The position numbers were made by a program, and so were the translations under genes. The notes beneath the pieces were generated by a model that was given only the letters and a program-made list of their open reading frames with translations, did not search any database and had not been told where the DNA came from. From an uncultured Verrucomicrobia subdivision 3 bacterium (GTDB taxonomy: Bacteria > Verrucomicrobiota > Verrucomicrobiia > Limisphaerales > UBA11358), in NCBI GenBank assembly GCA_903865745.1, contig CAIPKV010000020.1:1-34210 (forward strand): a stretch of 34,210 nucleotides of DNA, in the 5' to 3' direction. Positions 3,116 to 27,531 of the stretch are shown here, piece after piece. Position 1 is the stretch's first letter, and each line of letters opens with the position of its first letter.

Positions 3116-6100
3116 CTAATTCTGCTGCAACCGGTAGAAGGCCTTCGTTCCAGTCACCGATCCGGTCCAGCGCATCTTGGTGGCATCATTCGGATCCACC
3201 ACCGGGACCGGATTGGTCACGAGTGTCCAATTGGCTCCCGGCCCTAAAACCGGCGTTGTGCAGAGGCTGAATCCCGTCGCGGCCAACGGCCATTGCAGGA
3301 CCAGCTGGCCGGTGGTCGGTTGGAGGCTTAACACGGGAGCCAAGCCCGGCAAGTCAATTTGCAACTGAGCTCCGTCCAGAATTGCGAACCCGCCCGTTCC
3401 CGGTGCCACGCTGGCCAGCAACTGGCCGTTTGTGATGGTGCCGGTGAATATTTGATAGGCATGGCCCACCCCGGTGGTGATATTCCGGCTGTCGCCCGCC
3501 ACGGTCAGCGTCTGCCCGTTCACCGTGACCACCGAACCTTGGGGCGGGTTATTGCCCGCGGCATACACCACCAAGGTGTAGCCGTCCCCGTTAAACGCCG
3601 ACAAATTGTTGTAGGTGCCCGTAATGGTTCCGCCGTTGAGATAAGCATAGTCATACATCAAATTCAACGGGTTGGGACCGGCATTTGCGTCGCCATAGAA
3701 CGTGCTGGTGCCCGCCACGGTGAACGTCATGCCCGCCGCGCTGCTTCCCGCCGAATTGGGCACCGCATTGGCCGTCCCCAAATTGTTGACGGTCGCCCAT
3801 TGATCGCCGCTACTCCCCAAAACCGCCGCTCCGCCCATCGGGTGTGAACCCGTGTTATCCACGTTGACGTTAAACAATTGTTGGCTGGCCAGCGGCACGC
3901 TCACCGTCAGGATGGCGGTGGCGCTGGTGACCGTGCCATAGGCGTTGCTGATCACGACGCTATAGCCGCCGGCGTTGCCGGTCTGAACATTGTTTAGCGT
4001 CAACGAGCCATTGGTCGCCCCGCCCAGGTTTGCGCCATTGAACAGCCATTGATACGTCACCGGCACGGGACTGGCGGTCGCCACATTGAAGGTCACCGGG
4101 GAACCCGCCACGACCGTCTGACTGGCTGGCTGCGAAGTAATGCCGGAATTAACCGTGATCGTACCGCCGTTCAAAACCCAGTTCTGGTTGGTGGGGTTGA
4201 GCAAACTGGGTGCCTGATTGTTCGTTCCGATCTGAAACGCCACCGCCGTGAACGAATACGCCGGCACAGTCAACACGAAGTTGGTCGAAGCATTGGTAAT
4301 CACCCAGTCCACCGGCAAGACATGGTTTGGCTGCGCAGCCGTATTCACATCCGTCAGCGCGCCAGAGGTCATCGTCGTCGCAAACGCCATCGGCAGAACA
4401 CTGGCCACGCCGCCGATGTTGAGGGTCGTCCGGCAAGGCAGCGAGTCCAGATTCACCAGCTTGAGCGCCATGACGCTGCCGGAGTCATCCACCGTTGCGC
4501 TCATGGACAACGAGTTGGCGGAGTAGTTCGCGCCGGAACTGGCCGGCACGTTGATTTGGTTGCTGCAAACGATGCTGGAGTAAACCAGGTTGGTTTCCAG
4601 ATAACGCAACCGCGTGGCAAACGCCTGCGCCGGCGGCTGCAACCAGACCGAGGAATTATTGAAAAAGATCAACCCCTGGTCCCAGCCATTGTCCACCGCG
4701 CCATCGGCTTCCAGCGCACTGCAAATATCCACCGTCCGAACGAAATCCGAATTGGCCTCAGCCACGTTCATGATGGCGGAGTCTGTCAGGGCGCGGAAGA
4801 AATCGTGCCGGCCGGAATTGATCTCCTGCACATACAGTCCCAGCGGCGAAATGTTGGGGCGAAGATAGGTGATCAGCGCCGTAAAATCCGCGGGGTCGCC
4901 CCACGAGGAGTCATACGGAAACACCGACAGCGAATCAACATAACCCGGCAGCGCCGCCTGCGAGGCGTTTAACGAACTGGCCGGGGCGAGGTCGGCAAGC
5001 GCCCAGCCCACGGTGCCGGTGAATAAAGTGACCGACGGATCCACGGCATGGACGGCAGCTCCCGCCTGCTGGCAATAGCTGTCGCTGGGCTTGCCGTTAC
5101 CGAGCTGGATATACTTCAAGTTGTAGGGGGCGGGATGGCCGTTGGTGGCGCGCGTCCAACCCCAGGTCGTATTGGTCGCGCCGTTGCAATACTGCACGAA
5201 ATCAGCGATGTCCTGCGGCGTCTCATAAGGGCTTAAGGTCGGGATGGCGGTGAAGCCCGCCGCCGAGCAGAACTGCATGAATTCCTCGATGCTCCAACCC
5301 TTGCTTTCAAAGGCATACCAAGGAAAATCGTAAATACTGCGTTGATCCGGGTTGCCGATGCAGGTTTTCCAACGGTAGTTGGGAATTTCCGACATGTCGC
5401 CGCCCAGCCGCAGCGAATGCACGCCCATTTTTATCAGCGCGTTGGCAATGTCCGCCCGGACGGGCAGGCCCTGGAACAGGTTGGTGCCGGTGGGCATCAG
5501 CACCGCCTGATCCACCCAGACCGCGCCGGGTTGGTTGATCCATACCGCAAATCGGGCGTTCGTGCTGCTGGCGCTGGAAGTGAGCGTGAACGGAAACTCC
5601 GCCCAGTTCGCGCCCAGGCCGGTCAGGCTGGCCGAGGCATAAGTCGCCGCCCCATTCGAGCTTTGCAAGGCCACCGTGACCGCGCCGGCATAGTTGGTCG
5701 TGCGCAAATAGATCCGACCTTGGTAAGTGGCGCCGGCCTGCACGTTAAGTCCGAAATAATGCAACCCCTGATTGAACAATCCCACCGCACCGGTGCCGTT
5801 GGTCAGGGCCAGGCACTGGGAACGAAAAGTATTGTAAGGATTATTCGTGTCCCACAGAAAGTAACCTGCCGCAGTGCCGGTGAACAGCGGACTCCACCAT
5901 TGGCTCACCGGGCCGGGATAATTGGTCGCCCGCGGCATGATCAGGCCCAACACGGTTCCCACGCCGAGGGAGTTGGTGAGGGCGAGGTTTTTGATGCTGC
6001 CGCGTGCGCCCTGGGCGTCAAAGCCCACCCAACTACCCGTCAGGGGCGAACCATCGGTGTAATTGATCACCGGCACCAGCGCCGCGTTGTTGCTGCCGGC

Positions 6101-9100
6101 ATACACCTGGATGGTCCCGTTGGTCAGGGCGACGCGCAAATGCTGCCAGCCGTCCGCGCCCACGGTCGCGCTGCCGCCGACCAGTTGCGTGCCGCTGGTC
6201 TGGGCGTATTTCCACAGGGAAATCTGGCTGTCGCCGGCGGCCAGCACATAACAGGTGCCGGCGACACTGTCGTAGTTGAACACCAGCCCCGGTTGCCCGT
6301 CGTTCCCACTGCCCAAGTCCATGAGGTCGCAATCAATGGTTCCGTTGGTTGCCACCTGATTGGTGCAGACAATCCGCTGCGCACGAAAGCCCACCAACGA
6401 CAGCACGTTGTTTTCCGTCCACCATTGCCCCTGCCAAACGGGTTGGGGGTCAATCCCCAGAGCGTATTGCCAGTTGGGCAGGAGAGATTTCTCGGGCCCT
6501 TCCTCGAAGCTCTCGCCGTAAATCATCTGCGCGTATAGCCCGCCGTATAACTCGTGATTCAGGTCTTCCATCGCCGCCCCGTTGATGAACGGCCCCACCT
6601 TTCTCACCGGCGCCGTGGGCCAGAGCGTGATCGTGGCAACGTCATTCGTCGCCGGCACCGTCCGGTTGACCGTGATGGCATAGGCCGTTCCCTGGTTGTT
6701 TTCCAACCACTGCTGATCGCTGGCCGCAAGATCTGAAGCGAACATCAGGAGTTCGGAAATGTTCCCCGTTAAAGACCAACTCCCGTTATAGGCTGAACCG
6801 ACAAACATCGTCTGCGACCCGCTGATCAGGTTGGCCGGCGCACTGTTGGTGGCGACTAATGAACCGTCCCGATACAAACTGGAGCCGGCGGACGGAAACT
6901 TTATCGCCGTCCATATGTGCAAGGCCCCGTCCGACGCCACCGTGTAATAGCTGTCGTCGCCCCAGTTACCTAAATCCAGCGTGGAGGAGCTTCCGTTGAA
7001 CATCAGCCAGCCTGCGGTGTTAAAACTGACCATGGCATCGTATGTTCCGCCGGTGTTGAACGGCGTCACCTGGCCCAAAATCGAATAGGTATAAGGCGTG
7101 TTCTGCTCCCATGACTGGTTGGCGAGGCTCAAAAACTGCGAACCGTTGAAATTCAAGGCCGGCTGGCCATTGACGGTGTTGACCGACCCGCCGCTCACCA
7201 GCAAGGGCTGGTTGGTCGCCGTGCCCTGCGTCACATTCCGGCCGTTGCCCGACTGGTCGTACCAGATCGTCACATACCCGTTGCCGGCGCCGACGAAGTT
7301 CAACAGCGAGGGCGTGTCCAGATACCCGCCGGCCGTGAACCCGATGTTCGTGGTCGTGTTGTCCGAACTCCGCCGCACTTGCAGAACTTTGCCGGTGTAG
7401 TTGGTCCGCAATAACCTTAAAGAGTAGACCGCCTGCGCCGCCGCGCTCAGGGTGTTGAGCGGTGCCGGCAGCACGGTGAGCGTCGCATTGTTGCTGGCCA
7501 TGCCGAAGTTATTCGACACCCTGACCGTATAGATTCCCGCCGAATTTGATGTGCAGTTGGCCACCGTGAGAGTCTGGCTGGTCTGGCCGTTAACCGGCGC
7601 GCCATTGAGGAACCACACATAGCTGAATGGCGGCGTGCCATTGGTCACAACCGTGAAGGTGGCGGCGTAGCCCGCCAGCACCTGTGCGCTGGAGGGCAAA
7701 ACGCTCACCACCGGCGGAAAGCCCAGCAACACGTTGATTTGCGCCGGGCTACTGACCACGCCGCCATAGGCATTGGTGACGGCCACGGCATAAGCGCCCG
7801 ACTGGTTGGTGGTGACGTTATTCAGGGTCAGGGTCGAATTGGTCTGGCCGGCCAGATTCGTGCCGTTGAACTGCCACTGATACGCCAGCGGTCCCGGTCC
7901 GTAGGCGGTGGCGGTCAACACCACGGTGCTGTTGGTCAGAACCGTCCGGCTCGCCAGCGGTGCCACCGCGGGCCAGTAATAATCCCGCCACTGGCTCGTC
8001 GCCAGCGTGTCCAGATCCGGCCCGCTCAAATTGGAGTCAAATAGAATCATTTCGGGAATGTTTCCGACATAGGACCAAGCCCCCCCGGCGGCGGTGCCGA
8101 CATACAAGGTTGACGCGGAGGACATCAGGTTGTTGGGTGTGCTGTTGCTCGCCACCAGGGAATCGTCCACATACAGGGTCGAGCCGGGCGTCGGCCATTT
8201 TAGTGCGGTCAACACATGCAGGGCCTGGTCCGAGGGCACGGTGTAATAACTGTCATCGCCCCAGTTGCCCAGATCCACCGTCGTGGAACCTCCGCTGAAC
8301 ATCAGCCAGCCCGCGGTATCAAAGCTGACCAAAGCGTGCAGGGCATCGCTGAAGGTCGGTTGCTGGCACACCACCGAGTAGGTGTAGGGAATATTATTCT
8401 CCCAGGATTGTGAGCCGGCGCTCAAGTATTGCGACCCGTTGAAAGCGAGGGCGGGATAACCGTTGAGCAGGTTGACCGCGCCGGCAGTCACCAACTGCGG
8501 CTGGTTGGTCGCAACGCCCTGCGAAACATTGATGCCATTTCCGCTCTGGTCATACCACACTGTCACATAGCCGTTCGCCGCCCCGACAAAATTCAGCAGC
8601 GTATTGGTGTCCAGCAGCCCGGCGGCAGTGAAACCGATGTTCAGGGTTGCATTGTCGGAACTCCGCCGAACCTGCACGGCATACCCGGGATAATTTGTCG
8701 TGAGCAGCTTCAAAGAATACGCCGCCACCGCCTGTCCCTGCAGCAGCTTGTCCAGCGTGGTGGGGGCCGAGGACACGGCCGGCACCGCCGTAACCGTGGC
8801 CGACGCCCCGCTCTGTCCGCCGGCATTGTTGGCCACGACGCAATACACATAACTTGTTCCCTCGCTCACTGTGTTATCCACGTAGTTGGTGGTGCCGACG
8901 ATGGCGATTAGATTCGTCGCGCCGCCCGCACTCAACGCCCGATAGATGCCATAGCTGGTGGCCCCCGGGACCGCGACCCAAGCCAGAAGAACCCGGGTTC
9001 GATCCACCCGGAAACTGAGGCCTGATGGGGTGGCCGGCGCACCCGGTGCCGTAGCATTGAGCAGCCAGCGGTTGGCCGGAACGATTTCCGTCTCCGGCTG

Positions 9101-11710
9101 GCTCGGACACACCCAGCTCAACTGCGCCAAACCGTTCCCCGCGCTTCCGCCGCACTCCAGCCGCACGCGCGCCGGCTGTCCCGCCCACAGCGCCGCCGTG
9201 CAGGTGTTCGTCATCGGCCCGCCCGCGTTCCAGTTGCTGATCACCAACTGATTATCCAGCCACAACCTCACGCCCCCGCCGCTGACCACCGTCAGCGTAT
9301 AAGTATCCGACAAACCCGGCACCACCCAACCCGTCCACCGCGCGCTCCACGGCGCATTGCTGGTCATCAACGGGTCCGGACTACCAGCGCCCCAGTTGAA
9401 ATTCACCGCCGCATCCGGGCGCACCAAGGCCAGGTTCGTGAAATTGTTGTCGCGGTAATACTCGCCCTGCAATCCGTAACCCCGCGCCGGCGAGACGCTG
9501 CCCGCCGGGATCAACTGCGGCGGCTGGCTGGCGCTGCTCCAATACAGCGCCACTTGCGCCTGCGTCTGCGGCGAAGTCTTTGCCATCTCCAGCCGGATCG
9601 CCGCCGGGTCATTGGCCGTCAGCGCCAGACTCGCGGTGTTCGTCGGGCCGCCCGCCGCCGGCCAGTTGTTGACCGCCAACTGCCCGTTGACCCACAGCCG
9701 CACCGAGTTGCTGCTGACCACGGTCAACGTGTAAGTTTGCGAATACTGCGGCACGATGCTCCCCGTCCACCGTGCGCTGAAATTGTTTGTCGTGATGCTG
9801 GAGTCGGGCGTGCCTGGACCCCAATTAAAATTCACTTGTCCATCCGTCCGCGTCAACGCCGGATTGTCCACGTTCGGATTGCTACAATACTCCGCCATGA
9901 ACCCGTTGGGGCCACCGCTCCGATAATCCACCACCACTCCGTTGACCAACATCTGGCTCCCGCTGTAACTCACCGTCCCGCCCGGCGGCGCGCAAACCAG
10001 CACCATCGCCTGATCCGGCCCCATCGTGATGCTTTGGGTCCCGCTCACGCTCCGCATGAGAAACACGCCGCTCACTGCGTCATACAAATCGAAGTTGGTG
10101 CTGCCGAAATTGAAATTCACGTTAGTCGCCGTCGTGAAGGGATTGCAAACCAGGTAGCTTGGATAAGCCGCCGGATGATAGTAATCGCTGCCCAACAAAT
10201 CCCATGCGGGAATCGCCGCCACATCGGTGGAGTTCCAAACCAGCCCCAGGAACCCGACATGGTTGCCGGAGTATGGCGCGATGTTCTGCGAATCCGCACT
10301 GAAATGGATCGGCGGATTTGCCTTTTGGTAATAATAATTTGTTCCCGTGCCAAAGGTCCCGTAATCATCCCCCGTATCGTAGGGACTGTAATAAACGCCC
10401 CCCCCATCGGCGTTGGCGGACGTTGAAGACAATTTCTCCGAGGGCCACAGGTAGCCGGCGCCCTGGTACGGCAGCGCGTTCGTGTACCAAGCGGGATTGG
10501 GCAGGGCATCCCGCCAGTCTTTATGGTCCTGATGATACCAGTCCAAATCTATTCCACGCAAAAATCGCGCGCTGTTGGCCAAGTTCAACAGGGTGCGACC
10601 AATGCTGTGCGCAAACCGCTGATCATAGCGCGCCACCGGCGCCAGCCACGCCGCGTTCTGAAACGTGCCCATCGAAAAGGCGTTCCACCCCACAGCCGCC
10701 TGCCGGTCGGCTGACCTGTCGCAATCCAGCCCGTCGGCGTCCAGGCCGCCGGGACTGGCATTCACCGTCAATCCCCACCATGGTTTGGACCACGCCGGCG
10801 CGCGATTGCCATCCCCGTAGAAGCTGTCCATCATCCTCGCCAGATCCAAATTGTAGCCATACTGGGCATCCAGCCGCGCCACCGCGAGCGGCCCGTGCTG
10901 CACCACGCTTTCATACCGCGCGGGGTGGTCCAACTGCCATTGCAGCATCGCCTGCGCGCACGCCAGATATTGGGTGTTCCCGGTCCATTGATACCCCATC
11001 AGCAACTGCCAGCCGAAATTGGCCGCCGCGCCCATCGCCGCCGTCTGCTCCGTGGTTGCCGGCACCAGCTGGCGCAGCCCGATGTCGTAACTGATATCCG
11101 GGTTAAAATTCAAATGGTTCGGCGCCCCATAGAGTTCGGCGATGTTCAACACCACCGCGGACTGCGAAAGCATCTGGCTGCGGATCACCGGGTCGGCGCT
11201 GTGCAGACTCCCGTACATATAGCCGAGCGCCATCGGCCAGATTCCATAAATGCCGCCGTTCAACTGCCCGGCCGACTGGCTCGGCCGCAACACATACATC
11301 CCCGCGCTGCTACTGAACCAGTTCGCACCCATTAGATCCCAATTGAACCCGTAAAGGCTCTTCATGTTTAGCCCCAACAGTTCCGCCCCGACCAGCGCCC
11401 CCAGGTTGTTCTCCGCTTCGCCGTTGATCTCTGGCGCGTTGGTTACCAGATAGCCATTGATGCCAAACGCCGTGCCGTTGCTGGATACAGCCACCGCCGG
11501 CAGATTGCGGCCCACGGCGTGCGGGTCGAACAGCATCCGGTAGTAATCCGCCGAGTTCTGTTTCCAATTGACCATGTCCAGCGGATTCGGCAGCGGATGC
11601 ATCGGCTCCGCCACCGGCACCGCCACCGGCGGTTCGGCCGCGAAAACCAGCCCGGCAGCGAGCCCGATTAATCCTGCCACCAGAACCCCGCATTGGAAGC
11701 CTTTTTTCAT
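3116..11710 (-). CDS. Giant secreted multidomain protein (PA14 x2, FN3, LamG-like x2, Ig x3, GH51-like)
   Basis: A 2864-residue exported protein. Approximate order: signal peptide 1-25 (MKKGFQCGVLVAGLIGLAAG); an unrecognised domain rich in Trp/Tyr to about 595; PA14-type domains at 603-733 and 748-882; fibronectin III at 888-978; LamG-like domain with WYDQSGNG at 985-1245; Ig-like domains at 1247-1327 and 1330-1415; a second LamG-like copy at 1418-1677; a GH51 alpha-L-arabinofuranosidase-like region at 1682-2495 (INGAAMEDLNHELYGGLYAQ, then RWKTCIG, then QLGNG); an Ig-like domain at 2523-2603; a domain shared with the 911-aa protein at 2610-2787; and a C-terminal module to 2864. The Glu of the GH51 motif GNE is Gly (codon 5093-5095), while a candidate nucleophile Glu in YVQEINS (4823-4825) remains. 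I prefer the ATG at 11710, two bases after the upstream stub's stop; a GTG at 11716 is possible. Probably binds and processes an extracellular arabinose-containing glycan (inference). Confidence 0.9.
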   Translation of the reverse strand: MKKGFQCGVLVAGLIGLAAGLVFAAEPPVAVPVAEPMHPLPNPLDMVNWKQNSADYYRMLFDPHAVGRNLPAVAVSSNGTAFGINGYLVTNAPEINGEAENNLGALVGAELLGLNMKSLYGFNWDLMGANWFSSSAGMYVLRPSQSAGQLNGGIYGIWPMALGYMYGSLHSADPVIRSQMLSQSAVVLNIAELYGAPNHLNFNPDISYDIGLRQLVPATTEQTAAMGAAANFGWQLLMGYQWTGNTQYLACAQAMLQWQLDHPARYESVVQHGPLAVARLDAQYGYNLDLARMMDSFYGDGNRAPAWSKPWWGLTVNASPGGLDADGLDCDRSADRQAAVGWNAFSMGTFQNAAWLAPVARYDQRFAHSIGRTLLNLANSARFLRGIDLDWYHQDHKDWRDALPNPAWYTNALPYQGAGYLWPSEKLSSTSANADGGGVYYSPYDTGDDYGTFGTGTNYYYQKANPPIHFSADSQNIAPYSGNHVGFLGLVWNSTDVAAIPAWDLLGSDYYHPAAYPSYLVCNPFTTATNVNFNFGSTNFDLYDAVSGVFLMRSVSGTQSITMGPDQAMVLVCAPPGGTVSYSGSQMLVNGVVVDYRSGGPNGFMAEYCSNPNVDNPALTRTDGQVNFNWGPGTPDSSITTNNFSARWTGSIVPQYSQTYTLTVVSSNSVRLWVNGQLAVNNWPAAGGPTNTASLALTANDPAAIRLEMAKTSPQTQAQVALYWSSASQPPQLIPAGSVSPARGYGLQGEYYRDNNFTNLALVRPDAAVNFNWGAGSPDPLMTSNAPWSARWTGWVVPGLSDTYTLTVVSGGGVRLWLDNQLVISNWNAGGPMTNTCTAALWAGQPARVRLECGGSAGNGLAQLSWVCPSQPETEIVPANRWLLNATAPGAPATPSGLSFRVDRTRVLLAWVAVPGATSYGIYRALSAGGATNLIAIVGTTNYVDNTVSEGTSYVYCVVANNAGGQSGASATVTAVPAVSSAPTTLDKLLQGQAVAAYSLKLLTTNYPGYAVQVRRSSDNATLNIGFTAAGLLDTNTLLNFVGAANGYVTVWYDQSGNGINVSQGVATNQPQLVTAGAVNLLNGYPALAFNGSQYLSAGSQSWENNIPYTYSVVCQQPTFSDALHALVSFDTAGWLMFSGGSTTVDLGNWGDDSYYTVPSDQALHVLTALKWPTPGSTLYVDDSLVASNSTPNNLMSSASTLYVGTAAGGAWSYVGNIPEMILFDSNLSGPDLDTLATSQWRDYYWPAVAPLASRTVLTNSTVVLTATAYGPGPLAYQWQFNGTNLAGQTNSTLTLNNVTTNQSGAYAVAVTNAYGGVVSSPAQINVLLGFPPVVSVLPSSAQVLAGYAATFTVVTNGTPPFSYVWFLNGAPVNGQTSQTLTVANCTSNSAGIYTVRVSNNFGMASNNATLTVLPAPLNTLSAAAQAVYSLRLLRTNYTGKVLQVRRSSDNTTTNIGFTAGGYLDTPSLLNFVGAGNGYVTIWYDQSGNGRNVTQGTATNQPLLVSGGSVNTVNGQPALNFNGSQFLSLANQSWEQNTPYTYSILGQVTPFNTGGTYDAMVSFNTAGWLMFNGSSSTLDLGNWGDDSYYTVASDGALHIWTAIKFPSAGSSLYRDGSLVATNSAPANLISGSQTMFVGSAYNGSWSLTGNISELLMFASDLAASDQQWLENNQGTAYAITVNRTVPATNDVATITLWPTAPVRKVGPFINGAAMEDLNHELYGGLYAQMIYGESFEEGPEKSLLPNWQYALGIDPQPVWQGQWWTENNVLSLVGFRAQRIVCTNQVATNGTIDCDLMDLGSGNDGQPGLVFNYDSVAGTCYVLAAGDSQISLWKYAQTSGTQLVGGSATVGADGWQHLRVALTNGTIQVYAGSNNAALVPVINYTDGSPLTGSWVGFDAQGARGSIKNLALTNSLGVGTVLGLIMPRATNYPGPVSQWWSPLFTGTAAGYFLWDTNNPYNTFRSQCLALTNGTGAVGLFNQGLHYFGLNVQAGATYQGRIYLRTTNYAGAVTVALQSSNGAATYASASLTGLGANWAEFPFTLTSSASSTNARFAVWINQPGAVWVDQAVLMPTGTNLFQGLPVRADIANALIKMGVHSLRLGGDMSEIPNYRWKTCIGNPDQRSIYDFPWYAFESKGWSIEEFMQFCSAAGFTAIPTLSPYETPQDIADFVQYCNGATNTTWGWTRATNGHPAPYNLKYIQLGNGKPSDSYCQQAGAAVHAVDPSVTLFTGTVGWALADLAPASSLNASQAALPGYVDSLSVFPYDSSWGDPADFTALITYLRPNISPLGLYVQEINSGRHDFFRALTDSAIMNVAEANSDFVRTVDICSALEADGAVDNGWDQGLIFFNNSSVWLQPPAQAFATRLRYLETNLVYSSIVCSNQINVPASSGANYSANSLSMSATVDDSGSVMALKLVNLDSLPCRTTLNIGGVASVLPMAFATTMTSGALTDVNTAAQPNHVLPVDWVITNASTNFVLTVPAYSFTAVAFQIGTNNQAPSLLNPTNQNWVLNGGTITVNSGITSQPASQTVVAGSPVTFNVATASPVPVTYQWLFNGANLGGATNGSLTLNNVQTGNAGGYSVVISNAYGTVTSATAILTVSVPLASQQLFNVNVDNTGSHPMGGAAVLGSSGDQWATVNNLGTANAVPNSAGSSAAGMTFTVAGTSTFYGDANAGPNPLNLMYDYAYLNGGTITGTYNNLSAFNGDGYTLVVYAAGNNPPQGSVVTVNGQTLTVAGDSRNITTGVGHAYQIFTGTITNGQLLASVAPGTGGFAILDGAQLQIDLPGLAPVLSLQPTTGQLVLQWPLAATGFSLCTTPVLGPGANWTLVTNPVPVVDPNDATKMRWTGSVTGTKAFYRLQQN

Positions 11711-11712
11711 AG

Positions 11713-12048
11713 TCACAATAAGTTATAGATGCCGCCGATGCGCGTGAAATGACCATCCGGCGCGAACGGCACGCAGCCCGCGCCGATGCCGCCCAGCGGC
11801 ATACCAAGCGGGCCAGGTTGGTCCTTCGCGGTCATGAAATTATATTTGTCGCCTCCAACTGTGTCGCGCGCGCGTAAACAGGCATTGGCGGCATCCGCCC
11901 CCACCCAGGACTCAGCATGGAGGCAGGATGCAGCCAGAAACAGAACCGAGCAACCCATCAGGGTAACCAACACAATGTAGTCCAGTAAACCGGGTTTGGA
12001 GGTCCAAGGGATGATGGTCGTACGACGTTTTAGCGCGTTCGAAGGCAT
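11713..12048 (-). pseudogene. GH116 N-terminal stub (signal peptide plus first motif only)
   Basis: A 111-codon ORF with a hydrophobic export segment (about residues 22-44) followed by PGPLGMPLGGIGAGC and FAPDGHFTRI, the opening of GH116 glucosylceramidase-type enzymes. The intact paralogue in this window has GPSGVPLGGIGVGCFDYAPDGRFTRI at the same place. The ORF ends eight residues later, where the family continues for about 800 more, so it is a remnant. Its TGA stop (11715-11713) is 2 bases before the ATG of the giant gene, so translation of the stub could still feed ribosomes to that gene. It might be kept as a secreted short peptide, but nothing supports that. Confidence 0.7.
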
Positions 12049-23116: not shown

Positions 23117-23602
23117 TCAGGCCCATCGGCATTCAGTTTCAATCGTTGCATATTCTGGGTCATAATGAGGGAAGAAGCAGAGATCTCGATCCCTGACACT
23201 CGCCGGCGTATTCCCCAGCAGGGTTGGAAACTGGTTTAGACCGTCAAATTTCTGGTCCGGAAATGGCTTCACCCCCAGCGCCGCGAGCAGAGTCGGATAG
23301 AAATCCTCACAACTAAAGATGGCGTCGGTGCGCGTGCGGGATGGCGTACACATGGGATAGGCATAAGCTTGCGAAAACCGCAATCCGCGTTGGGCCAACC
23401 GTTCAATGTTAGGCGTCTCGTAAAACCGGGTGGTTCCATAAAGTGTGGTGTCACTCCAGCCGCAATCGTCGGTGAGAATAAACAAGATGTTGGGACGCTT
23501 GAGATCCTCAGCCGGCAACGCCAAAAAGGGTGTAACGAGCGCGGCAATGGCGATAAAAAGGCCAGACAGCTTGCTGGAACGCGGTTGAATCCGAATGCTC
23601 AT
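23117..23602 (-). pseudogene. Sulfatase remnant: in-frame internal deletion and lost C-terminus
   Basis: A 161-codon ORF starting as a secreted arylsulfatase: signal peptide, then [16 protein letters not shown] with the metal-binding Asp pair, [19 protein letters not shown], and the formylglycine site CTPSR. Directly after CTPSRT the sequence jumps to [20 protein letters not shown], which in full-length enzymes lies some 200 or more residues later, and it ends at CRWA, where the family continues RWKLI. Roughly two thirds of a 450-500 residue enzyme is missing. The junction lies near 23326-23340 at a repeated CGCAC, consistent with deletion between short repeats. The ATG overlaps the GH130 stop (ATGA), showing the former operon layout. 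Activity is very unlikely, since the substrate-binding middle is gone. Confidence 0.85.
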
Positions 23603-24672
23603 AACCCCCACTTAGAGTCCCTTAGGGTCGAAAGTATTTCAATGATGGAAAAGCGCGCCCCGCAAATGACACTATCGGCGGCTCCGTAATAAATCGTGAC
23701 GGCATCACCATCCACCACATGACCGTTGGTGAAAACGACATTGCCAAAGAAGCCGGTTTTTTCATAAGGCGCAGTTGGCTCCATGATGGGTTCTTTTGAA
23801 CGGGCGATCACCTTCCAAGGTTGCTCCAAGTCCAGCAGCAGAGCGCCGAGGCAGTAGCGGTTTTTTTCGTTGGCCCCGTGATAGATTTCCAGCCAGCCGG
23901 CGGGAGTTTTAATCGGCGCGGCCCCGGCACCGACGCGCACACTGTCCCACGCACCGGGTCGGGTTTGTGCGATGCAATGGTGTCTGCCCCAGTGTTGCAG
24001 ATCAGATGACTCGGCAAGCCAGATGTAATTGCCGCCAATCTCCGGGCTGGAAGGACGGTGCAGGGCAAAATAGTGCCCACTGATCTTCTCATCGAACAAC
24101 GCGCAATCCTTGTTGTGCGGCGGAAAGATGAGGCCATGTTCCTGAAAATGTTTCCAATCCCGCGTGGAGCGCATACCCACCGTGACCCCGTTCGGGGAAA
24201 CCGCCGTGTAGGTCAGATGATATTCGCCGTCCCATTGTGAAACCCGGCAGTCCTCGATGCCGAAAGTTTCATAAATTCCATGGCCATGAAGCGGCGGAAA
24301 GGATTTGTCTTCGCTGAAATGAATCCCGTCATCACTTGTGAGGATTCGCAGATGCGAGAGCGTGGTAAGATAGTGCACCCCAGCGTAACGCAAAACGCGT
24401 GGGTCGGAAATGTCCAGTCGTGGATCATTCCGATTGAATTCCAAAACCTGTGCCTCGCCTGATTCGGAGAGGATGGGAAAGGAAACAAAGCCTGCACGCG
24501 GCACGGGGCGTTCCGCCACGCGCACGAGCAGGCAAATTTTCCCGTTGAACCGGAACACGCCCGGATTTAACAAACACTCGACTTGCCAGTCGGGCCGGCT
24601 GGGTTGAATGTCAGCCGCTCGGAGCAAAGGATTTTGCGGAAAACGGTGGGATAGATCACTCGTTTTGTTCAT
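23599..24672 (-). CDS. GH130 family beta-mannoside phosphorylase or mannosidase
   Basis: A 357-residue five-bladed propeller enzyme without signal peptide, so cytoplasmic. GH130 marks: [16 protein letters not shown] (about 37-52), [15 protein letters not shown] (about 136-150, the family GxEDPR blade with the catalytic Asp kept and Pro replaced by Cys), [20 protein letters not shown] (about 245-265), and [16 protein letters not shown] near the end. GH130 enzymes phosphorolyse or hydrolyse beta-1,4- or beta-1,2-linked mannosides; I cannot decide the subgroup because the phosphate-binding residues cannot be aligned by eye. It follows GH116 by about 50 bases and overlaps the sulfatase remnant by 4 (ATGA). 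It probably acts on a disaccharide imported by the GPH transporter (inference). Confidence 0.88.
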
Positions 24673-24723: not shown

Positions 24724-27531
24724 CTAGTGTGCAAGTGTATCGGCAATTGACGGCAGCACGGGTGGCTGATATTCACCGGCCATTATTTCATCCCAATGAC
24801 TGGACAAGTCCAGCACCCGGCCCGGATGAACCTTGAACGGCGGAATCGCAAACGAATGACCTTGAGATGAAGCCATGCCAGCCGACTGGCTGACGACATG
24901 ACGCAAGGTGATCGGCGGACCGTCGAACTCTTTCGTGACCGTGAAAGTCAATTTGCGGGTTGCGCGGTCGGCGGTGACAACACCCCAGAAGCGCGGGAAG
25001 TAAACCGGCAAAACTGCCCGAATTTCATCCGGCGCCAACACCGGGGCGAGCGCCATCGTATCGGCGGGCAAATTGAGGCTGCTGCCAGCCAGAACATCGG
25101 TAATAAACCACGTCACGGGCGCGGTCATGTAAGTCAGTTCGCCCGGCCGCCAGAGGTTTTGCGTCCACGTCCAGCCGTTGCGCAAATTGACCAGTTGAAT
25201 ATGCCGCAGAATGTTTAGGCCATCGGCGATATGGCCAGCCTGAATGGCCGCCATCGCGGTGTAGCTTTCCTCGTAAAATGGCCAGCAGGTTGAATCGGCA
25301 TTGGGATCATCGGGACGGCGCGGATCCATCATCGCCTTGTTTTCCTTGAGCGACCAGACTTTCGGCGCGTAGAAATCCGGCGAACGGGCGATGTTGGATT
25401 GCAACTGCGCCAGCACGGAAGACTGAACATCCGGCATCGGATACACGTCGCCCCAACCCAGATACCGGCTCAAAAACTGGCCGGCGAGCTGACCGCTGAA
25501 CATGATGTCGTCGCGGCGATGCGCGCCGTCCAGATCCGCGCCGTAGGCGAAGAAGCGTCCGTTCCATAACGCGCGCTTGGCATCGGCGGCGGAAGCCACC
25601 GCCTGAATTCGGCATGTTGCCGCCTCGTTCGTCTGGCCCAAGGCTTCCAGCAAAACTGCGCCAGCCCGCAGAAAGGCCGGATAAGTGCTGGCGTTGTAGG
25701 CATAAATTTCCGGATGCCAGAAATCGTCATAAGTCGTGGCGCCGGTGATGATCTGGAATTGTTTGCTTTCGACGCGGGCGCGCAGAAAGGCGAGGCTGCG
25801 GTGAATCTGGGCGTCAAACGGCTTGATCCACGCCACGTCACCGGATTGTTCGGCACATTCGGCCATTTGCAGGAGCCAGCCGCCGGTATTGTCCAACATG
25901 CAATTTTCAGGCACCGGCGTCCGCCCATCGCGCGTGTCCAGCCCGAAAAAGTAATGACCGTCAAAATGTAAAATCTGCCCGTCACGTCCTGGGTTAAGCC
26001 CGAACAATTCAAGGTTGGCGCGTTCGAGCTGGGGGAAAAATTTGAAGTAAAACGGATGCGCGCTGATCTGCTGGTCCATCGTGCCGGCCAGCCCACCCAT
26101 CCCCCCCTCCATCATGGTGTATTCGCCGGCCCGGTTAAGAATTGAGCTGGCGTAAATCGGGTAGGCGCTGTTGATGACCTTGAACTTGAGCCAGTCGGGA
26201 TAAGTGCTGTCCAAAATCGGTTTTTGCCAGGCCAGCGTGCCGTCATGAATGTGTTCGCGCTCGCGGGCGGCATAACTCACCAGATCCGAGACCGTGGCAA
26301 AGTAATTTTGATAAAACCGGCCATGGTCGGCATTGCCAAAATAAGTTCCGGGATCGTCCTGGGCCGGATCAATTTTCAATTCCGGCTGGAACCACGCCAC
26401 GGCAAACCGCACCACCCGTTTTTCCCCCGGCTTGAGCGTCACCCGCACCGCCACCGCGCTGGCCATTTCGTGTTTTGCGAACGGATCGTAAAGTGCAATA
26501 GCGCCGGCGGCGCTGGAAAATTCCCCGGCCTTGCGGAAGTCCGCCCATGCCGCAGTCGCGTCGTCCACGCGGTAGGCCGGCAGCACGGAGATTTCCGCGC
26601 CGCTGGATTTTTCGGCGAGCAGAACAATTTCGTTGTTGTAGTTTTGGTAAGTTTTCAGGACTGGCTGCAACGGCGCGCTGAACTGCCGGATGCCGGCCAA
26701 GTTCCCCACTTTGAATGGCTCGGCCTGGGTCGGCACCCGGTTCAGCACTCCCCATCCGGTGATTCCTTGCTTCCAAGCCTTGTTGAACGCCTCTTCCTTG
26801 CCCCAGACCGTCGGACTGGCCCGCAGCAAATCCAGATTGGTCACCTCCACGATGTCCCGCCCGATCACGTCCTGCCAGGAAAAGGCCACCGCGACCGGCT
26901 GTTTCGTGTTTGTGGGATTTTTCAATTCCACTTCGATCCACGCCAGCGGCAGGCTGGAATCTTTCACGTCGTGCGGCACCAAACCGGACCAAGCGCGGAC
27001 CACGGTATCAGCATCCACCTGGCAATTTGCCGTGGGAAACAATCCCTGATAAATCGTCTCTTTGGCCGCTGTCATACCGGCAAAATCCGCGCCGCGCTGA
27101 AGCAATCCGGCCTGGCCATCGCGCCAGACGGCCAGAAATGTGCCGGGCGCCTGCTCAATGACCGGCGACTGGTCGGCGGCGTGCCAGTTGTTGATGCAAA
27201 TCCGGGTGAACCGGCCATCCGGTGCGTAATCAAAACAGCCCACGCCAATGCCGCCGAGCGGCACGCCGCTGGGACCGTGGTGGTTTTTCAACGCGAGATA
27301 GTCAAAGCTGTCCGCGCCGCCCAGCTTCGTGCCGGGCGTGGCGGCCATGGAATTGACCTTGGCCGCGCCATAATCAATTGCATTTTCGGCTATTGCGGCC
27401 GCGAACCTAAACATCGGTTGCGTTACGAGCAGCCAAACCAAAAATGTTTTCCGCCACATCCGGCCCTTGAGCAACTTTTTGGGGGTTAATTGGGACGTAA
27501 TCAGACAACGGGGTTGGGGTGGATTATTCAT
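24724..27531 (-). CDS. Secreted GH116 glycoside hydrolase
   Basis: A 935-residue exported enzyme of the GBA2/glucosylceramidase-like family, whose members cleave beta-glucosides, beta-xylosides or N-acetylglucosaminides. A signal segment is at about 25-48. N-terminal beta-sandwich motif PSGVPLGGIGVGCFDYAPDG at about 87-106; (alpha/alpha)6 barrel with MMEGGMGGLAGTMDQQ (about 470-486, likely containing the nucleophile Glu) and RRDDIMFSGQLAGQF (about 672-686, likely containing the acid/base Asp); near the end RPGELTYMTAPVTWF. Length is normal for bacterial GH116. The ATG at 27531 overlaps the stop of the (alpha/alpha)6 gene by 8 bp (ATGAATAA), so the two are translationally linked. A stub of a second GH116 gene lies at 11713-12048. 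Confidence 0.9.
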   Translation of the reverse strand: MNNPPQPRCLITSQLTPKKLLKGRMWRKTFLVWLLVTQPMFRFAAAIAENAIDYGAAKVNSMAATPGTKLGGADSFDYLALKNHHGPSGVPLGGIGVGCFDYAPDGRFTRICINNWHAADQSPVIEQAPGTFLAVWRDGQAGLLQRGADFAGMTAAKETIYQGLFPTANCQVDADTVVRAWSGLVPHDVKDSSLPLAWIEVELKNPTNTKQPVAVAFSWQDVIGRDIVEVTNLDLLRASPTVWGKEEAFNKAWKQGITGWGVLNRVPTQAEPFKVGNLAGIRQFSAPLQPVLKTYQNYNNEIVLLAEKSSGAEISVLPAYRVDDATAAWADFRKAGEFSSAAGAIALYDPFAKHEMASAVAVRVTLKPGEKRVVRFAVAWFQPELKIDPAQDDPGTYFGNADHGRFYQNYFATVSDLVSYAAREREHIHDGTLAWQKPILDSTYPDWLKFKVINSAYPIYASSILNRAGEYTMMEGGMGGLAGTMDQQISAHPFYFKFFPQLERANLELFGLNPGRDGQILHFDGHYFFGLDTRDGRTPVPENCMLDNTGGWLLQMAECAEQSGDVAWIKPFDAQIHRSLAFLRARVESKQFQIITGATTYDDFWHPEIYAYNASTYPAFLRAGAVLLEALGQTNEAATCRIQAVASAADAKRALWNGRFFAYGADLDGAHRRDDIMFSGQLAGQFLSRYLGWGDVYPMPDVQSSVLAQLQSNIARSPDFYAPKVWSLKENKAMMDPRRPDDPNADSTCWPFYEESYTAMAAIQAGHIADGLNILRHIQLVNLRNGWTWTQNLWRPGELTYMTAPVTWFITDVLAGSSLNLPADTMALAPVLAPDEIRAVLPVYFPRFWGVVTADRATRKLTFTVTKEFDGPPITLRHVVSQSAGMASSQGHSFAIPPFKVHPGRVLDLSSHWDEIMAGEYQPPVLPSIADTLAH

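Follow-up and report, generated by a model that had tools for sequence, protein, structure and literature searches.

The giant protein encoded in the window (the whole stretch of 34,210 nucleotides analyzed here) contains a module of the GH51 fold that is devoid of the acid/base Glu and retains the nucleophile as well as several residues of the sugar pocket. Judged from its sequence, this acid/base-less module with its kept pocket is, on balance, most likely a binding pseudoenzyme.

A GH51-fold module within a giant protein

The open reading frame of the giant lies on the minus strand at 3116..11716 and encodes 2866 amino acids from a GTG codon, or 2864 from an ATG two codons on. The protein begins with a signal-like sequence (judged by eye) followed by an unassigned domain of ~560 amino acids, and matches to Pfam and PDB then delineate two PA14 domains, an Fn3-like domain, partial GH54-like stretches, an Ig domain, the GH51-like domain, another Ig domain, and a C-terminal part. 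GH54 (PF09206) scored 61.9 bits (cut-off, 25) on two stretches, the best of which, residues 1430-1502, covers just positions 16-89 of the 315 in the profile. On the first ~560 amino acids (9917-11599, minus strand), no Pfam family scored above its cut-off. Of the other 48 genomes in the genus, a single one (G006) had relatives of this part at E ≤ 1e-20, and the contig in question also has GH130 frames 58-80% identical, in the aligned pieces, to the GH130 of the window. Folding of the N-terminal 561 amino acids without an alignment gave a pLDDT of 31.6, and that model was left out.

The GH51-like domain spans residues 1684-2497 (4226..6667, minus strand), an assignment supported by Pfam, an AlphaFold model, and structural matches. 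Two Pfam GH51 families scored above their cut-offs, namely PF22848 with 40.3 bits (cut-off, 22.2; best stretch, profile positions 108-149 of 239) and PF06964 with 32.6 bits (cut-off, 27; positions 19-165 of 165), and the domain reached 50.3 bits with NCBIfam ArfA (NF051901), which is below the 625-bit cut-off of that family. The mean pLDDT of the AlphaFold model is 81, although block means fall to 50-66 around residues 2234-2273. The first 23 entries of the VIA structural list were all alpha-L-arabinofuranosidases (Z, 34.2-38.3), followed by an Acidobacterium beta-glucuronidase with a Z of 28.1, and the best Foldseek match of the model was 6zps (E, 5.6e-37). When a profile built from the domain together with 39 relatives was run against the PDB sequences, MgGH51 was the top match (E, 2e-44). 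Within the domain, a beta-sandwich insert is located at 5939..6475 (minus strand; limits approximate) by its levanase profile match, in which profile positions 64-228 match levanase chains 4azz, 4b1l, and 4b1m; the levanase binding module that it resembles is presumably CBM66.

A Gly at the acid/base position and a conserved nucleophile

An excerpt of PMC7604909 gives Glu351 as the general acid/base and Glu429 as the nucleophile of MgGH51. In the profile alignment to this enzyme (6zps), the Glu of its GNE motif, which is Glu351 when numbered from the ends of the PDB row in the alignment, falls on the column of Gly2208 of the giant (5093..5095, minus strand), and the alignment to homologues likewise turns GNE into GNG here. 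This residue sits within NGHPAPYNLKYIQLGNGKPSDSY. The earlier note had proposed a GH51-type domain without its acid/base Glu, to be checked by alignment to GH51 and a structure model, and both bear the proposal out, with Gly filling the acid/base column and the modelled fold being that of GH51. It had also stated that Glu to Gly needs two base changes at this codon, and GGC is indeed two changes away from GAA and likewise from GAG. We also asked whether a frameshift could have produced the GNG loop and rejected this, since the other two frames, read by eye, hold no GNE-like text.

The candidate nucleophile that had been pointed out in YVQEINS is retained as Glu2298 (4823..4825, minus strand), and its column holds E in 75/75 full rows, those of the window and of a second GNG protein, L112, included. 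In the AlphaFold model, GNG directly follows a strand ending at residue 2205, and residues 2293-2300 form a later strand that includes Glu2298. In clan A, the acid/base follows beta-4 and the nucleophile lies at beta-7, and the modelled strand positions of GNG and Glu2298 would fit this layout, as expected.

Pocket residues and lost invariants

In the profile alignment, Glu1717 (6566..6568, minus strand) is aligned with Glu23 of MgGH51 and Asn2207 (5096..5098, minus strand) with Asn350, and both are retained; the pocket contacts of MgGH51 run from Glu23 to O3 and from Asn350 to O2, with Tyr402 as a further contact (PMC7604909, excerpt). Five residues, Glu1717, Asn2207, Glu2298, Trp2345, and Gln2347, are kept in the window as well as in L112. 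As far as sequence can tell, the retained pocket residues favor at least binding.

The two GNG proteins also share residues that set them apart from their GNE relatives. Asp2107 of the GGD motif (5396..5398, minus strand), aligned with the pocket residue Asn231 of MgGH51, is D in both, versus S/C/T in 73/73 rows of the GNE clade (over all 84 clade rows, S/C/T in 81, L in 1, and a gap in 2). GGD also occurs in L141, a GNE protein of another GH51 branch (versus GGN, GGS, and GGC elsewhere), and Asp2107 is thus no proof of a moved acid. Pro2210 of GNG-K-P (5087..5089, minus strand) is Pro in L112, too, and in 0/73 GNE rows. At F2266-P-Y2268 (4913..4921, minus strand), where the alignment is less sure, F2266 occupies the position of the His in the D-x-H motif found in 80/84 clade rows, so that the window is without this His and has a Tyr two residues on. 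Tyr2268 matches Tyr402 of MgGH51 only if the beta-6 alignment is right, as this MgGH51 stretch lies outside the profile alignment. L112 probably retains the beta-6 His (VLGSHLL), which, together with its loss of 21/62 invariants (see below), indicates that the two pockets differ.

The invariants were counted after rows of ≤600 residues and rows without the anchor residues had been dropped, which left 70 full rows with 62 invariant columns. Of these columns, 12 are lost in the window, the highest fraction among 71 rows; the next-highest losses were in L104 (11/71) and L100 (10/69), both of which are GNE proteins and less diverged, so many losses alone are no sign of a lost acid. Losses in the window were concentrated from residue 2206 on (8/19, versus 4/43 before it; Fisher p, 0.005), a cut that was picked after the loss list had been seen and with two of the 8 falling in the unsure beta-6 stretch. 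With the beta-6 losses left out, the window lost 11 of the 62 invariants and L112 lost 21, including 8 lost by both (hypergeometric p, 0.005). Still, 50/62 invariants are retained at a mean identity of ~31%, which argues against plain drift.

Another GNG protein, from a distant genome

L112 comes from genome G769, which was found in the phylum sample and belongs to the same phylum as the window and to a different family. It is a free-standing, open frame of 882 residues with a signal-like start (by eye), and it shares 32% identity with the window domain across 839 columns. The site reads KPYGIKYLMYGNGQPDT in L112 versus APYNLKYIQLGNGKPSD in the window; GNG-x-Pro, GGD, and the nucleophile Glu are common to both, and in both the Gly codon is GGC, two changes from either Glu codon. 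The earlier note judged a sequencing slip unlikely for the two base changes needed, and this is strengthened by the neighboring residues, which differ as well, and by the GNG-x-Pro of L112. It also took GNE in homologues as a pointer to a recent mutation. Every other homologue read across the site does have GNE, but L112 carries GNG in a distant genome, which argues against a recent mutation private to the window. Gly2208 is thus unlikely to be a private mutation or a sequencing slip, and the loss of the acid/base looks like a kept trait.

In a tree built without the catalytic columns, the window and L112 paired with a support of 80, a pairing that joins two long branches of the kind that the tree program warns may be false. 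Without L112, the window fell beside L033, L037, and L108, all GNE proteins, on an end branch of 2.88 changes per column versus a median of 0.41. Departures from conserved columns (rows of ≤600 residues dropped) were identical between the window and L112 at 25 columns and between the window and L033 at 15, the most among GNE rows. With 119 departing columns in L112 and 63 in L033, the window-shared departures amount to 0.21 and 0.24 of the partner's total, respectively (median, 0.11). The fraction for L112 is not above that for L033, so two separate losses are possible. The window and L112 likely form one subfamily, and one loss of the acid/base Glu or two are both possible.

Survey of homologues at the site

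The query of the survey ended six residues before Gly2208 and was hence blind to the site. A scan of the genome-contig collection yielded 148 relatives, the best 80 of which were kept as 79 loci (L033-L111) from Planctomycetota, Verrucomicrobiota, Armatimonadota, Bacteroidota, Bacillota, and others. One short L047 frame was left out of the alignment. In the homologous rows, the site is E in 81/84 and a gap in 3/84, the gaps belonging to L084, which is truncated where its contig stops, and to the leading fragments of the interrupted frames L075 and L096; a row with E is present in 78/79 loci, L084 being the exception. A second, overlapping set of 91 loci (85 from the genus of the window), assembled from the loci returned by searches and 60 places fetched by hand from the genus listing, has E in 90/91 and G in 1/91, the latter being L112. 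Because L033-L111 and L007-L032 have contigs in common, the two counts depend on each other, and a row does not always represent a distinct gene. The stretches L034, L042, and L099 each carry two GNE frames of this GH51-like clade.

The window and L112 are thus the only two GNG members found by searches whose thresholds weaker members may have escaped, and since the peptide patterns of the scan would not match L112 (QMLYGESF), other GNG proteins could have been missed. A single-sequence scan of the genome-contig collection returned no relative. Among the 49 genomes of the genus, no close orthologue was found, the best other matches (E ≤ 1e-60) being 31-42% identical. At the order level (E ≤ 1e-80), 10/320 genomes matched, the window's own included, with identities of 32-40% besides the window itself; in the class sample (E ≤ 1e-85), 2/384 matched (its own and G013), and in the phylum sample (E ≤ 1e-88), 2/387 (its own and G769). 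With L112 as the query, G769 alone matched in its order (161 genomes; E ≤ 1e-85) and in its class sample (193 genomes; E ≤ 1e-78). Matches were also present in 57 plasmid records, and the 10 matches listed are 22-27% identical.

A GH116 gene shared by the two GNG loci

The window locus encodes MFS_2, GH127-like, GH116, GH130, a sulfatase-like fragment, GH2 with malectin, DUF1861, a pilin-like protein, and an Ig protein, and the L112 contig encodes BacA, GH29, GH31, GH116, and a PATR-repeat protein. When 13 frames of the window were compared with 6 of the L112 contig (E ≤ 1e-4), the GNG proteins and GH116 were the only matches. The GH116 protein of the window (24724..27531, minus strand) is 55.8% identical over 901 amino acids to that of the L112 contig, and the distance between the gene and the GNG protein is 13 kb in the window (to the giant) and 2.7 kb on the other contig (to L112). 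Within the genus, 1/49 genomes had this GH116 at E ≤ 1e-60, namely that of the window; in the phylum sample, 2/337 had it at E ≤ 1e-120, and these are exactly the two GNG genomes. GH116 was absent near the GNE homologues in all 79 loci within flanks of up to ~4 kb, a yardstick that the window itself (13 kb) would fail. Near 10 GNE loci, it was also absent from 19 stretches of up to ~17 kb per side where contigs allow, a control that is partly redundant with the absence of GH116 from the window's genus, to which 8 of the 10 belong.

The window GH116 also has a weak match to the exo-beta-D-arabinofuranosidase 8ic6 (E, 1.9e-6), which makes D-arabinan a conceivable substrate. The sulfatase-like frame (23117-23611, minus strand) seems to be a truncated sulfatase, its best stretch covering positions 1-54 of the 301 of PF00884; it shares 16 bases with the beginning of the GH2 frame. 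At the second GNG locus, GH116 is adjoined by a 1067-amino-acid protein with a PATR (passenger-associated-transport) repeat (L180, 11354-14557, minus strand). Rfam at gathering thresholds gave no match in the window.

A probable binding module or, less likely, an enzyme with another proton donor

We propose that the window module and L112 have abandoned normal double-displacement hydrolysis but still have the -1 pocket. The pocket residues suggest that the module would bind a terminal, arabinofuranose-like furanoside and thereby hold the giant on its glycan, on which the other enzymes of the locus (GH116, GH2, GH127-like, and GH130) could then act. The signal-like start would be consistent with secretion, and the gene context with a partnership with GH116. 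A natural loss of the acid/base combined with a kept pocket most simply points to a binding module, and an acid/base mutant of the GH51 enzyme AbfA has been crystallized with two substrates (PMC7604909, excerpt). The kept nucleophile, which a lectin does not strictly need, counts against this reading. The same residue would be put to use in a rewired active enzyme, with Glu2298 as the nucleophile and the proton coming from Asp2107, the substrate, or a co-substrate, a possibility that on the sequence we hold to be real, if less than probable. In plant myrosinase, the proton is supplied by the co-substrate. Such an enzyme would account for the nucleophile and pocket residues kept in two proteins that are only 32% identical, and for the Asp that both have at 2107, versus S/C/T in 73/73 GNE rows; at six positions, both GNG proteins are acidic and at most 1/10 of the GNE rows are, Asp2107 being the only one of the six placed in the pocket via MgGH51. 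Yet the GNE protein L141 has Asp at this place as well, the window has also lost other invariants on the catalytic side, and, in the excerpted accounts of MgGH51 and TxGH51, the conserved contact here is made by the backbone, so that the side chain may miss the glycosidic oxygen. That the two proteins represent a GH51-type lineage with the nucleophile kept and the proton donor moved, acting as a transferase or as a slow hydrolase that is selective for the leaving group and coupled with GH116, appears unlikely.

The domain might also be an inactive relic that drifts inside an otherwise working giant, which we regard as quite improbable. The long end branch of the window (2.88 versus 0.41) and its top fraction of lost invariants would be expected of a relic, but most invariants have persisted at low identity, the 8.6-kb frame is open, and the free-standing L112 keeps the pocket residues in another genome. 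Errors of assembly or sequencing are scarcely credible, as is a recent mutation private to the window: the genome is a draft of 87 contigs, but such an event would have to produce two base changes and altered neighboring residues, and also the GNG-x-Pro that L112 carries identically.

Comparison with known systems

A family-level annotation would label the domain an arabinofuranosidase. A natural GH51 lineage in which the acid/base is lost and the nucleophile kept would instead represent a sugar-binding module derived from an enzyme, or else offer a test case of how a retaining glycosidase manages without its usual acid, and the shared GH116 is a concrete candidate partner. Among the papers and abstracts listed in literature searches, there was no natural GH51 protein devoid of the acid/base.

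The GH51 arabinofuranosidases MgGH51 (6zps), Thermotoga (3ug3), TxAbf (2vrk), and AbfA (1pz3) have a fold like that of the domain (Z, 36-38), and the window keeps their nucleophile Glu and the aligned pocket Glu and Asn; unlike them, it is without the acid/base Glu, has a levanase-like insert, and is part of a 2866-amino-acid protein. The GNE clade (L033-L111; Planctomycetota, Verrucomicrobiota, and others) is built like the window domain, at 28-36% identity over 39 aligned rows, and the profile of the set shows the levanase-like insert, too. It differs in having GNE (81/84 rows, with 3 gaps), D-x-H (80/84), and S/C/T at 2107.

Among laboratory GH51 mutants, we take E173 of Ara51 (R67A/E173A; 5o81) and the residue changed in TxAbf 2vrq to be the acid/base. 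The catalytic site is changed in these and in the AbfA acid/base mutant, and substrate is bound in the latter (PMC7604909, excerpt) and in 2vrq (by its title). These mutants are man-made, whereas the window and L112 are natural and are changed at further positions. Heparanase 2, a relative of heparanase 1 and presumably a GH79 member, belongs to another family than the window domain and is likened to it by description, not by residues. Like the module as we read it, heparanase 2 is described, in an excerpt of PMC12406646, as a natural glycosidase relative without activity.
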